NCBI GenBank assembly: GCA_007693785.1
Contig: RECY01000026.1
Coordinates: 186,001-250,000, forward strand
Source: Phycisphaerales bacterium
GTDB lineage: Bacteria; Planctomycetota; Phycisphaerae; Phycisphaerales; UBA1924
Direction of reading: 5' to 3'
DNA length: 64,000 bases
Shown: in pieces, positions 15 to 54,540 of the stretch
Position numbering within the stretch: the first letter of the stretch is position 1
Layout: each line of letters begins with the position of its first letter
The notes under the pieces: generated by a model
Seen by the model: the letters and a program-made list of their open reading frames with translations, nothing else
What the model was told of the DNA's origin: nothing
The model's database searches: none
Position numbers and translations under genes: made by a program

Positions 15-48
15 GGAGCACTGACCTCTCGGAAGAGGTCAGTGGCAC
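15..48 (-). repeat. GTGC-hairpin-CTCC repeat, copy 1
   Basis: Perfect 11-bp stem (19-29 with 34-44) around loop CGGA. Read on the minus strand, it is bounded by GTGC before and CTCC after the stem. The same stem sequence recurs at 40490-40515. It lies just upstream of the ABC permease gene. Confidence 0.8.
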
Positions 49-19285: not shown

Positions 19286-19430
19286 TCCGGTGCCCCGGAA
19301 ACGCGGAGCCGTCTGCGGCGGAGTTTTTCCGGGCTTCTGGGTCTTCCGTGCTCGCCCCGCCGTCCGCGTTCGATCATGGAAAAGCTTCGCCAACCGCGGA
19401 CGGTCGGCTGCGCGTTTCCATGGCACCGGA
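19286..19430. repeat. 145-bp element with inverted ends, copy A
   Basis: 26-base ends (19286-19311 and 19405-19430) are imperfect inverted repeats sharing GGTGCC...GGAAACGCG. An inner pair (GGCGGAGTTTTTCC versus GGAAAAGCTTCGCC) forms a second inverted repeat. A homologous 144-bp copy lies at 40171-40314, and a half copy at 2003-2042. It has the size and shape of a MITE and encodes no protein. Confidence 0.8.
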
Positions 19431-19486: not shown

Positions 19487-21127
19487 GTGCAGGATTCGAC
19501 GCGGGCTCAGGTTGTGCTCCGGGTGTGCGCGCTGGTGGCGCTCGGGCTGGTGCTGTATCTGCCCTGGCTCGGGGTCGGCGGGCTGGCGTACACCGAGGGG
19601 CACCGCGCGATCCCGGCCCACGAGATGCTCGCGGGCGAGACGGCCGGCCACGCGTCCGGCGGGGCGGGCGAGCGGGCGATGGTGACGACGATGTTCGATC
19701 GCCCCTACCTGCGGAAGACGCCGGGCACGCCCTGGGCGATCGCGGGGAGCACGTGGGCGCTCGGGCAGCTGCCCGAGGCGGCCCGCCCGAGCGTCGAGTT
19801 CGCCGCCCGCCTCCCGAGCGCTCTCGCGACGATCGCTGCGGGCGTCGCGGTCTTCCTGTGCGCACGTCGGTGGTTTCCGACTACGGGCGACCGGGCAGCT
19901 GTGTACGCCGGGGCGATGCATTTGCTGCTCCCGGTCTATTGGGAGGGCGCGCGGACGGCCGAGATCGAGGGGCTCAACACCGGCATGACCGCGATCGGCG
20001 CGGTGCTGCTGGTCCACACGCTCGTCTTCGCGCGCACCACACGCGCGGCGATCTTCAGCGGCACGCTCGCGGGCACGTTTGTGACGCTCGCGATGATGGC
20101 GAAGGGGCCGGCGAGTCTGCCGGTCTTCGTAGCACCGTTCCTCGCGGCGGGGGTGACCAGGTGGTGGGCCTCGAAGCACGGGCTCGCGTGGGCGGGGCTC
20201 GCGATGCGGCGCAACCCCGGCGCATGGATCGCGGCGGGGCTCCCGCTGGGCGTCGCGGGGGTGTATTTGCTTGTCATGTCGCGTCTGGTCGCGGGGCTGG
20301 GCGAGGCGCCGGTGCTGCAGTCGCCCTCGGAGTTCATGTGGACGCTGGGCCGCCTGCCCGCGATCGCGGCCCTCGCGCCCACGGGGCTCGGATACGCGAT
20401 GCCCGCGGCACTCGCCCTGCTGTTCCCGTGGGGGCGCGAGGCCCGCGAGGAGGCGGCTTCCGCGGAAGGCTCCCGCGCGTCGGTGCTGCTGGTGGCGCGC
20501 ACGCTGGCGCTGACGATGCTGCTGGCGCTCGGGATCTACGCCGCCTTCGGCGTGCACAACCCGCGGTACGCGATCCCGGCGCTGGTCACGATCGCCCCCC
20601 TCGCGGCGTACGTCGGGCACGGCTACGCCACGGGCGCGTTCGGCGCGACACGCCGACGCATCGCGTGGCACGTGGGCGCGCGGTCGTGGTGGACGTGGCC
20701 GACGCTGCTCGCGGTCGGCATGGTCGGCTACATCGCGGTCTACGAGCAGCCGCGGCGAGGGACGAGCGGTCGCGAGCCGGCGTCGGCGCTCGCCTCGGCG
20801 ATCGCGGGCGCGAGCGAGGGCCGCCCGGTGCGGGTGTACGCCGACGAGATGGTCGAGGCCCGCCCGGAGCTGCTCTGGTACGCGACGCGCCGCGTGCAGG
20901 AACGCGGCGGGCAGGCGCGCGGGCGTTGGGCGAGCGCGCCGGGCGTTGCGCAAGCTCTGCGAGACGGATCGCTGGCCCTCGTGCGCACGGACGCGGACAG
21001 CGACGAACGCGGACGCCTGGCGCGCGACTTCGGCGTGGAGACGGTCGTGCTGCACGAGGGGCGCGTGCACCGGTACGACTTCGCGCTGGTGCGGGCGGGG
21101 GAGGTTCCGGACGAGCCGCGACCGTGA
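19487..21127 (+). CDS. GT-C fold glycosyltransferase (ArnT/PMT-like)
   Basis: A 546-residue polytopic membrane protein with ~10 hydrophobic helices and the topology of polyprenyl-phosphate-sugar-dependent glycosyltransferases (PMT_2/ArnT). An early loop after helix 1 (YTEGHRAIPAHEMLAGE) and a second loop with RPYLRKTPGTPWAIAG correspond to the DE...RxxYxxxxxKPP-like catalytic region. The sugar donor and acceptor are unknown; lipid A or a secreted protein are family-based guesses. The start is uncertain: in-frame reading continues upstream through a repeat element, so it must be after ~19430. The last residues, PDEPRP and stop, are encoded by a dispersed repeat. Confidence 0.75.
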   Translation: MQDSTRAQVVLRVCALVALGLVLYLPWLGVGGLAYTEGHRAIPAHEMLAGETAGHASGGAGERAMVTTMFDRPYLRKTPGTPWAIAGSTWALGQLPEAARPSVEFAARLPSALATIAAGVAVFLCARRWFPTTGDRAAVYAGAMHLLLPVYWEGARTAEIEGLNTGMTAIGAVLLVHTLVFARTTRAAIFSGTLAGTFVTLAMMAKGPASLPVFVAPFLAAGVTRWWASKHGLAWAGLAMRRNPGAWIAAGLPLGVAGVYLLVMSRLVAGLGEAPVLQSPSEFMWTLGRLPAIAALAPTGLGYAMPAALALLFPWGREAREEAASAEGSRASVLLVARTLALTMLLALGIYAAFGVHNPRYAIPALVTIAPLAAYVGHGYATGAFGATRRRIAWHVGARSWWTWPTLLAVGMVGYIAVYEQPRRGTSGREPASALASAIAGASEGRPVRVYADEMVEARPELLWYATRRVQERGGQARGRWASAPGVAQALRDGSLALVRTDADSDERGRLARDFGVETVVLHEGRVHRYDFALVRAGEVPDEPRP

Positions 21128-21201
21128 GGGAGCGGTTAGAGCGGCGTTGATGTCTGCAATCTTGCGGAGGACCGCTCCCTCACGGTCGCGGCTCGTTCGG
21201 A
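21106..21201. repeat. 31-bp inverted repeat containing the PDEPRP/stop repeat
   Basis: Arms 21106-21136 and 21171-21201 are complementary with one mismatch, around a 34-base loop. The left arm encodes the last residues and stop of the glycosyltransferase. It lies between convergent genes and could terminate both. Each arm contains a copy of the sequence seen at 2096-2118. Confidence 0.85.
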
Positions 21202-24852: not shown

Positions 24853-24888
24853 GGAGCACGGTTTGGATTCCGATCCAAACCGTGGCAC
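24853..24888 (-). repeat. GTGC-hairpin-CTCC repeat, copy 2
   Basis: A perfect 12-bp stem CACGGTTTGGAT/ATCCAAACCGTG around TCCG. The same stem recurs at 40333-40360 in opposite orientation. It lies between the convergent P-type ATPase and mgtE genes. Confidence 0.8.
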
Positions 24889-26976: not shown

Positions 26977-27936
26977 GTGCCCCGCTACAAGCTCACCCTC
27001 CGCTACGACGGCACCGACTTCTGCGGCTGGCAGAAGCAGGAGCAGCACGCCACACCCGAGGCCCTCGCCCGCATCGCACGCCCCGGGCACCCGCTCGGCG
27101 AGCTCCGCGACGAAGGCAAGATCCACCTCCGCACCGTGCAGGACGTGCTCGAACGCGCCGTGCGACAGGTCGTCCGCGAGCCGATCGTCCTCATGGGCGC
27201 GAGCCGCACCGACGCGGGCGTCCACGCCGAGGGCCAGGTCGCGGCCTTCACCTGCACCGCCCACGAAGAACGCGGGCGCGGCTGGCCGCTCGACCGCGGG
27301 CTCGACAGCCTCCGACTCGCCATCAACAGCCGCCTGCCCGACGACGTCCGCGTACGCACCGTCGAGCCCGCGGCGCACGACTTCGACCCCATCCGCGGCG
27401 CGACTAGCAAGGCCTACCGCTACACCATCCACGCGGGACGCGACCACCCGCTCTGGGACCGGCGCTACGTCTACGCGGCTCCCTACGCGCTCGATGCGCG
27501 CGCGATGCACGAAGCCGCTCAGAAGCTCGTCGGCGAGCACGACTTCCTCGGCTTCACGGCCGCCGACCACGGACGCCTCACCACCGTCCGAACGATTTTT
27601 TATTGCAACGTCGCCGAGCAACCCCAAGCCGATCAATCTGGCCCCGACCACACCGAGCACGAAGCCCCCGCGCAGCGCATCACCATCGACGTCGCCGGGA
27701 GCGGCTTCCTCTACAACATGGTCCGCATCATCGCCGGCACCCTGCTCGAAGTCGGGCGCGGGCGGCTCGACCCCGCCCGCATCGACGAGGCCCTCGCCAC
27801 ACAGGACCGCACCAAGGCCGGCCCGACCCTCCCCCCAGAAGGCCTCCGCCTCGAATGGATCCGCTACGGGGGGTCAGCCATCAGAGATCAGCCATCAGCC
27901 ATCAGGGATGCGTCAACCCCAACCCCTGATGGCTGA
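26977..27936 (+). CDS. truA: tRNA pseudouridine(38-40) synthase TruA
   Basis: Converts uridines 38-40 of the anticodon arm to pseudouridine. 319 residues against ~260 in most species. The N-terminus YKLTLRYDGTDFCGWQKQ and the catalytic aspartate motif GASRTDAGVHAEGQVAAF are clear, as are DHPLWDRRYVY and GSGFLYNMVRIIAGTLLEVG. Two additions explain the length: an insertion at residues ~26-45 and a C-terminal tail (AIRDQPSAIRDASTPTPDG) that is encoded inside a palindromic repeat and is probably non-functional. GTG is used as start and TACCCT lies six bases upstream. Confidence 0.95.
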   Translation: MPRYKLTLRYDGTDFCGWQKQEQHATPEALARIARPGHPLGELRDEGKIHLRTVQDVLERAVRQVVREPIVLMGASRTDAGVHAEGQVAAFTCTAHEERGRGWPLDRGLDSLRLAINSRLPDDVRVRTVEPAAHDFDPIRGATSKAYRYTIHAGRDHPLWDRRYVYAAPYALDARAMHEAAQKLVGEHDFLGFTAADHGRLTTVRTIFYCNVAEQPQADQSGPDHTEHEAPAQRITIDVAGSGFLYNMVRIIAGTLLEVGRGRLDPARIDEALATQDRTKAGPTLPPEGLRLEWIRYGGSAIRDQPSAIRDASTPTPDG

Positions 27937-27950
27937 TCCCTGATCCCTAC
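27872..27950. repeat. Palindromic word repeat overlapping the truA 3' end
   Basis: GATCAGCCATCAG (27886-27898) is perfectly complementary to 27926-27938, and related CAGCCATCAG/TGATCCCTGAT words surround both arms. The truA stop (27934-27936) lies in the right arm. The TACCCT hexamer of the next gene lies at its edge. Confidence 0.75.
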
Positions 27951-37962: not shown

Positions 37963-40138
<2,176 letters not shown>

Positions 40139-40170: not shown

Positions 40171-40314
40171 TCCGGTGCCCCGGAAACGCGGAGCCGCCGC
40201 GGCGCAGCTTTTCCGGGCTCACAACCTCCCTCGCTCCTCAGCGCCGTCCGCTCCCGAACATGGAAAAGCTCCGCCGGCCTCGGAAGCCCGGCTCCGCGTT
40301 TCCATGCCACCAGA
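40171..40314. repeat. 145-bp element with inverted ends, copy B
   Basis: 26-base ends 40171-40196 and 40289-40314 are near-perfect inverted repeats through GGAAACGCGGAGCCG. The inner GGAAAAGCTCCGCCGG segment pairs with GCCGCGGCGCAGCTTTTCC near the left end. It aligns with copy A at 19286-19430 over its whole length. Confidence 0.8.
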
Positions 40315-40328
40315 CCAAACTCCACTCG

Positions 40329-40364
40329 GTGCCACGGTTTGGATTCTGATCCAAACCGTGCTCC
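40329..40364 (+). repeat. GTGC-hairpin-CTCC repeat, copy 3
   Basis: A perfect 12-bp stem (40333-40344 with 40349-40360), loop TCTG; the same stem as copy 2 in opposite orientation. Confidence 0.8.
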
Positions 40365-40379
40365 CCTTCTCCCGCCCCT

Positions 40380-40404
40380 GTGCCACAGACCTTGTCTGTG
40401 CTCC
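40380..40404 (+). repeat. GTGC-hairpin-CTCC repeat, copy 4
   Basis: A shorter stem CACAGAC/GTCTGTG around CTT, with the same GTGC and CTCC ends. Confidence 0.7.
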
Positions 40405-40485
40405 CCGGCCCCTCCTCCCCGTCCTCGCCCGCTCCCAACACCCCAAGCCAAGACCACACCAGCACATGAAGAGGAGGAAGGTCCA

Positions 40486-40519
40486 GAAGCACTGACCTCT
40501 CAGAAGAGGTCGGTGGCAC
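40486..40519 (-). repeat. GTGC-hairpin-CTCC repeat, copy 5
   Basis: Stem CACTGACCTCT (40490-40500) pairs with 40505-40515, one G-U pair, loop CAGA. The same stem as copy 1 at the start of the window. The CTCC end is changed to CTTC. Confidence 0.75.
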
Positions 40520-40624
40520 ATCCGGCCCCTCCCCCGCGGGCGTATCGCCTCAAAACTGCTTTTTTCTGTCGGTTGCCGCGGACATACTGTCACCACCGGT
40601 CGCCGCTCCGTCGGATCGGCAAGG

Positions 40625-54465: not shown

Positions 54466-54540
54466 GGGGGCATAGCTCAGTTTTGGTAGAGCGCATCCAT
54501 GGCATGGATGAGGTCAGGGGTTCGAGTCCCCTTGCCTCCA
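54466..54540 (+). tRNA. tRNA-Ala(GGC)
   Basis: A 75-base cloverleaf. The acceptor stem GGGGGCA/TGCCTCC has the G3-U70 pair that identifies alanine tRNA. The D arm is GCTC/GAGC, the anticodon stem CATCC/GGATG with loop ATGGCAT (anticodon GGC at 54501-54503), and the T arm AGGGG-TTCGAGT-CCCCT. Discriminator A; CCA is not encoded. Confidence 0.97.

Follow-up and report, generated by a model that had tools for sequence, protein, structure and literature searches.

Five short hairpins with similar ends and different stems lie in a stretch of Phycisphaerales DNA, and the locus raises the question of what kind of element they are and how such a family came to be dispersed between genes. The window, the whole stretch that was analysed, comprises 64,000 nucleotides of a 3.06 Mb draft assembly. 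A sequence-only reading had placed five copies in it, in varying orientation, and direct reading found each where it had been claimed, with the strands -, -, +, + and - in order of position. Two further elements in the window belong to a family linked to the genome's RAYT (REP-associated tyrosine transposase), a domesticated transposase thought to copy short hairpin elements between genes. By position, the features are:

15-48, minus strand: copy 1, a REP with a TGACCTC stem (variant T2), read directly, partnerless within 200 bp in the census.
19290-19426, plus strand: second window copy of the RAYT-linked BIME, GTGC-CCCGGAAA... with an inverted GTGC-CATGGAAA.
24853-24888, minus strand: copy 2, a REP with a GGTTTGGAT stem (G family), read directly, between convergent called genes.
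40175-40310, plus strand: RAYT-linked BIME, GTGC-CCCGGAAA...TTTCCGGG with an inverted GTGG-CATGGAAA...TTTCCATG, adjoining the copies at 40329-40519; a like pair flanks the RAYT on both sides.
40329-40364, plus strand: copy 3, a REP with a GGTTTGGAT stem (G family), read directly.
40380-40404, plus strand: copy 4, a T1 REP (TGACCTTG type) apparently lacking 9 nt and altered at one base, which forms the left end of the doublet 40380-40519.
40486-40519, minus strand: copy 5, a REP with a TGACCTC stem (T2) and the tail CTTC, right end of the same doublet.

The ends said to be shared, GTGCCAC on one side and GTGCTCC on the other, were exact in four of the five copies. Copy 5, which reads GTGCCACCGACCTCTTCTGAGAGGTCAGTGCTTC on its own strand, ends with CTTC and not CTCC. 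The CAC and GTG of these ends belong to the stem, which leaves GTGC before it and CTCC after it as the fixed parts. Read on its own strand, each window copy consists of GTGC, a palindrome with outer CAC...GTG and then CTCC (CTTC in copy 5). Two of the three stem types that had been distinguished were retained, TGACCTC in copies 1 and 5 and GGTTTGGAT in copies 2 and 3. The AGAC stem of copy 4 was no third type. Aligned to the TGACCTTG type, this copy looks like T1 minus 9 nt with one base changed, and a perfect 7-bp stem remains. Copy 4 and copy 5 together make up a single inverted doublet, one at each end. The exact pattern GTGCCACN{8,38}GTGCTCC matched four times in the window compared with 0.02 matches expected by chance, and none of 100 shuffles reached four. 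At 40175-40519, three REP families stand in a row, flanked by an ORF for a V/A-type ATP synthase subunit on one side and by dnaB on the other (Pfam); a weakly scored called ORF (39866-40138) precedes the row. Rfam at gathering thresholds showed no match at the hairpin coordinates, the only match being a tRNA at 54466-54540. The window also contains a 31-nt inverted repeat at 21106-21201, 97% complementary with arms 34 nt apart, and overlapping ATCAG-rich inverted repeats at 27880-27948.

The genome-wide search that had been proposed for the pattern went far beyond five copies. The exact pattern had 95 matches, 51 forward and 44 reverse, at least two of them non-palindromic by eye (C19:69360 and C41:22837), and the reversed pattern, used as a control, had one forward match and none in reverse. 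A mismatch scan was carried out on 719,106 bases, about a quarter of the genome, comprising the window and 40 stretches picked around matches and therefore a non-random sample. It detected 124 copies, and none with reversed references. The TGACC-stem family (T) accounted for 102 copies and the GGCTTGG/GGTTTGG-stem family (G) for 21; the remaining one was the AGAC copy. Within T, 57 copies were nearest to TGACCTTG (T1) and 45 to TGACCTC (T2). The head was GTGC in 97 of the 102 T copies and another 4-mer in five, and the palindrome sits directly behind it. The tail, which had been taken as equally fixed, was CTCC in 74 of the 102 and CTTC in 14, and at other RAYTs it varies while the head stays GTGC. 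CTCC is a local feature and GTGC the general one. Among 640 perfect hairpins in the census sample, both feet counted, GTGC was the commonest 5' foot with 93 cases. Another abundant palindrome, CCTCCCCCGC...GCGGGGGAGG, showed 76 half-site matches in the 719 kb, at 40528-40537 of the window and in many other stretches; GTGC was not among the feet shown for CCTCCCCCGC hairpins. The sequence CCCTCACCCCGGCCCTC had 15 matches in the same 719 kb.

Copies of the T family formed 32 pairs of adjacent + and - neighbours with their heads outward, which is the arrangement of inverted-doublet BIMEs or REPINs; the doublet of copies 4 and 5 was counted apart from these. The spacing was 58-93 nt in 28 of the 32, with a range of 0 to 177. 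T1 was paired with T2 in 29 doublets and with another T1 in three, and T2-T2 did not occur. This pairing of unlike variants had a binomial P of 1.0e-6, and one of 200,000 permutations was equally mixed. T1 and T2 occurred in both orders, 15 and 14 times. The unit is therefore a doublet with two unlike ends, here TGACCTTG and TGACCTC, about 80 nt apart with a linker that is poorly conserved in the alignment. E. coli BIMEs likewise combine different REP variants in opposite orientation. Pairing of the two linker halves was considered and rejected: the match was 6.6 within units versus 8.3 across units (27 units), and the within-unit mean was equalled or exceeded in every one of 5,000 permutations. 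Since the halves match worse within units, a conserved long cruciform is unsupported. Folded as single-stranded DNA, the window doublet (40370-40530) gave four arms with a z of -2.1, and six of 200 shuffles were as good. A GGGCCGCCC-like linker motif, scored in 30 units with T1-T1 doublets left out, lay on the T1 side of 8 units and on the T2 side of 7, with no unit carrying it on both and 15 lacking it; these are few cases. Inverted neighbours with unlike stems were also present beside other RAYTs (loci L126, L116 and L219), with CACGGGCGA and CACGGGTCATCGGG in L126 and CACCGACCTTG and CACCGACCTCG in L116. Unlike doublet ends may be general among RAYT systems.

The search for a RAYT in this genome identified a single gene, C13:27098-27622 on the minus strand, intact-looking and the sole one that the profile recovered up to an E of 10. 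It scored 107.6 bits against NF047646 (curated cut-off 80) and is akin to TnpArep (PDB 4er8, E 6.9e-8). The HUH motif MPEHVH and the tyrosine in KIDYCHINPV were both present in the alignment. The gene lies between two direct copies of a palindrome pair, GTGC-CCCGGAGA... and an inverted GTGG-CATGGAAA..., of which CCCGGAGA is the stem of its own REP. In this RAYT-linked family one head is GTGC, and the head at the opposite end is either GTGG or GTGC.

For RAYTs of other bacteria, the best 80 of 454 confirmed loci in named genomes were used, from which the window genome's own records are possibly absent. Sixty-seven were titled Planctomycetota or a subgroup, mostly Phycisphaerales; the others were Zixiibacteriota, Acidobacteria, further groups or untitled. 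Among these best 80 of 454, a GTGC-foot hairpin lay at most 700 bp from the RAYT in 46 loci (29 of 44 titled Phycisphaer-, 17 of 36 others). The same loci held 133 GTGC-foot hairpins in 106 kb near RAYTs versus 28 in 211 kb farther off, counts that also include feet whose last C happens to pair. GTGC was also present at RAYTs titled Acidobacteria (L217, L238) and Electryonea (L223). With the head of the repeated flanking hairpin chosen by the data, 111 distinct RAYT genes gave GTGC at 52, GTGG at 6, GTAG at 1 and any other 4-mer at two at most, proportions that apply to a set chosen for its similarity to the RAYTs of this group and not to RAYTs in general; a repeated flanking hairpin was absent at 33. 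The motif GGG[FYWH]D was present in 95 of the 111 proteins, and the residues beside WQxGGG showed no visible separation of GTGG from GTGC enzymes among the few cases. Forty Y1-domain loci were fetched from the same family of bacteria, 21 of them RAYTs by the GGG motif. A GTGC-foot hairpin was detected at 17 of these 21, being absent at L104, L111, L120 and L123, compared with none of the 19 other loci, one of which (L128, G024:C105) also passes the RAYT model NF047646. At E. coli rayT, which served as a control, the repeated-hairpin script found none; a looser look with feet limited to GTAG, GTGG, GTGC and shifted GTA, and therefore not a free test, found one hairpin with the foot GTAG. Three control windows placed far from RAYTs were all empty. 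The RAYT of L102 carries Cys in place of the Tyr of YIHxNPV in its relatives (RCIHRNPV) and, judged by this residue, is possibly inactive.

The hairpins of the window are very probably REP-like elements, occurring singly or as inverted doublets (BIME/REPIN), that belong to at least three families with a common GTGC head and are moved, as proposed, by RAYTs. This reading draws on their anatomy, copy number and intergenic location, on the RAYT association and on the match of stems to RAYT clades across relatives. By analogy with RAYT biochemistry in other bacteria, the elements would be mobilised by cleavage with the head as a guide. The palindrome would fold into a hairpin in the single-stranded state. 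A RAYT, as a Y1 (HUH) transposase, would recognise its own stem together with GTGC at the 5' foot of the hairpin, nick nearby and move or copy the element to another single-stranded site. Surviving copies would be intergenic, mostly near gene 3' ends. The analysis met neither an insertion polymorphism nor an empty site. Stem diversity would arise by co-evolution of each RAYT lineage with its own stem, and GTGC would be held by a conserved part of the enzyme.

The intergenic location noticed in the window extended to the census. None of the 124 copies in 719 kb lay within a called gene, at 82% coding according to a simple codon-usage script, and the claim of a dispersed intergenic family spread by some mechanism is upheld. 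Of the clusters, 25 stood between convergent, 27 between tandem and 13 between divergent genes, with six at edges. Gaps of at least 80 bp numbered 75, 174 and 81, respectively, and clusters were denser in the convergent ones. The suspected 3'-end bias was found as well, with 47 of 78 gene 3' ends facing a cluster within 60 nt compared with 9 of 58 5' ends. Perfect intergenic hairpins, denser between convergent genes and close to gene 3' ends, would also be expected of transcription terminators or mRNA 3'-end stabilisers with separate origins at many genes and a likeness due to convergence. This explanation is very improbable in view of near-identical sequences of 34-36 nt, ordered two-variant doublets and an identical head at RAYTs of other bacteria. 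Of the 124 copies, just three had TTTT within 12 nt behind the hairpin on the REP strand, and one had it on the opposite strand. REP-like hairpins of this kind may also serve secondarily at the 3' ends of mRNAs. MITEs of a double-strand DDE transposase, with GTGCCAC/GTGGCAC as terminal inverted repeats, would account for doublets of similar length (the 58-93 nt spacings of 28 in 32) that end in GTGCCAC...GTGGCAC. They are nevertheless a very improbable source, as 29 of the 71 clusters are single, stems and linkers vary with the head kept at each hairpin, and the association observed is with Y1 RAYTs.

The REP-like families were related to RAYT lineages with a tree of 94 RAYTs. GGGFD enzymes carry CA[CT][CT]GA stems in 20 of the 27 with a known stem, the other enzymes in 2 of 50. 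One 27-row clade (support 97/94) carries mostly CACCGA and CACTGA stems; as most GGGFD RAYTs fall in this clade, the association amounts to little more than a single evolutionary event rather than 20. A clade of L202, L264 and L213 (100/98) carries GTGC-CACGGCTTG hairpins, as in the G family of this genome. The host RAYT belongs to a six-row clade (100/97, inner forks weak) with the stems CGTGGAGA, CACGGAGG and CATGCAGG. Since stems sort by RAYT clade, the stem types of the window, described earlier as exchangeable, are better read as separate, coexisting REP families, each linked to a RAYT clade of its own, than as swapped modules. A true modular system, one element with fixed ends and stems swapped by recombination, would fit several stems with identical ends in one genome and both T1/T2 orders in doublets, but it is scarcely credible given that stem families follow RAYT clades in other genomes and therefore descend separately, that CTCC is not conserved elsewhere, and that 15 versus 14 is also expected from insertion of one two-ended unit in either direction.

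Within this genome, a cognate RAYT is present for the CCCGGAGA REP family, and RAYTs of other genomes have flanking stems like those of the other families. A profile search of the draft assembly up to an E of 10 detected no RAYT with TGACC or GGYTTGG stems beside it. The relatives G001 and G024 hold several TGACC repeats each, and a TGACC-flanked RAYT was found in neither. G001 has one RAYT, with CACTGGCGG stems, and one GTGCCACTGAC start beside it without the TGACC palindrome. The best RAYT of G024 is split over two frames, and the loci of five of its RAYT-search matches showed no TGACC-type hairpin headed by GTG[CG]. CACTGACC stems accompany RAYTs in G066, where the foot is GTGG, and near L212. 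In this genome, both the TGACC and the GGYTTGG family look orphaned, which makes them a clear example of REPs that are abundant although no cognate RAYT is visible. The cognate RAYT was possibly lost or is located in an assembly gap, or another RAYT possibly acts in trans. Loss of the RAYT after REP amplification is a model in the available text of PMC3686654.

The elements had been called unlike ordinary REP elements. This does not hold, as a conserved 5' tetranucleotide with a palindrome of variable composition is the ordinary REP definition in the available text of Nunvar 2013 (PMC3686654). The GT(A/G)G REPs and RAYTs described there and in that of Nunvar 2010 (PMC2817692) are alike in their short intergenic palindromes, fixed 5' tetranucleotide, inverted doublets, RAYTs flanked by their own REPs, stems that co-vary with the RAYT lineage and several families per genome. 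They differ in the head, which is GTGC here, with C for G as the fourth base. With GTGC in 97 of 102 T copies and at 52 of 111 RAYTs (GTGG at 6, GTAG at 1), the elements are therefore filed as REP-like, working like REP, and not as GT[AG]G REPs. In 95 of the 111 RAYTs, GGG[FYWH]D stands within a WQxGGG[FY]DRN motif, and TnpArep (4er8) has WQPRFWEH at that place in the alignment. Tagged palindromes, reported from Planctomycetes too, also make up the GTAG- and CGTC-tagged super-families in the available text of Di Nocera 2013 (PMC3733652), but neither GTAG nor CGTC fits here, nor do GYAG, GYRG, GTRG, GTMG or GTGG; the T-family ends were GTGC (97 of 102) and mostly CTCC (74) or CTTC (14), without a CGTC tag. 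The Y1 'class 3' proteins of Planctomycetes and Acidobacteria (Quentin 2018, PMC6006769) share planctomycete Y1 genes and flanking hairpins of unusual foot; as given in the available text they have a Y----Q tyrosine motif and a CnGA foot, in contrast to YIHxNPV and GTGC.

Published heads, in the text available for each source, comprise GTAG with degenerate forms, GTGG and CGTC (PMC3733652), GT[AG]G and CnGA (PMC6006769) and GT(A/G)G (PMC2817692, PMC3686654). The main texts of PMC3733652, PMC6006769 and PMC2817692 contain no word that begins with GTGC, and a literature search for REP, GTGC and transposase gave no related report. Within the freely accessible main texts covered, the GTGC head is new relative to GTAG, GTGG and near variants, CGTC and CnGA. 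A published screen searched for a GTAG/GTGG head by an RNAMotif rule (available text of PMC6006769); with these heads taken as the REP mark and screened for, a class headed by GTGC would escape detection. A REP/RAYT system can persist through a change of head.

According to the available text of PMC8266576, changes of the head shifted the cut of one RAYT predictably (GTAG to CT/CA, GTGG to CC/CA, GTAC to GA/GT), and attempts to shift the cut in this way failed with two other RAYTs. Extrapolated to GTGC, the pairing rule proposed for that one RAYT has C as guide base 4 select a cleavage site starting with G (GC or GA). Behind 168 RAYT-linked GTGC hairpins, which are not independent since copies within a locus are related, CT occurred in 86 at positions 2-6 versus 56 at 9-13, GC in 31 versus 46 and GA in 28 versus 46, the near count starting at position 2 because, by construction, +1 cannot be G, which would pair with the final C of GTGC. 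CC, TC and TT were likewise commoner near than far. The CT enrichment is only a hint of a candidate cut site. If CT were the cut, the head would not choose the site by pairing, and the system would provide a natural test of the role of the REP head. With GTGC and GTGG as natural guide variants on related enzymes, RAYT cut choice becomes directly testable. A tentative and rather doubtful idea is that GTGC guides a widespread RAYT/REP class of its own in Planctomycetota, in some Acidobacteria and in other groups. A small GTGG-headed family, GTGG-CACAGCTC, was represented by 10 matches in the 719 kb, for example at C13:5082, C14:4292 and C19:9064.
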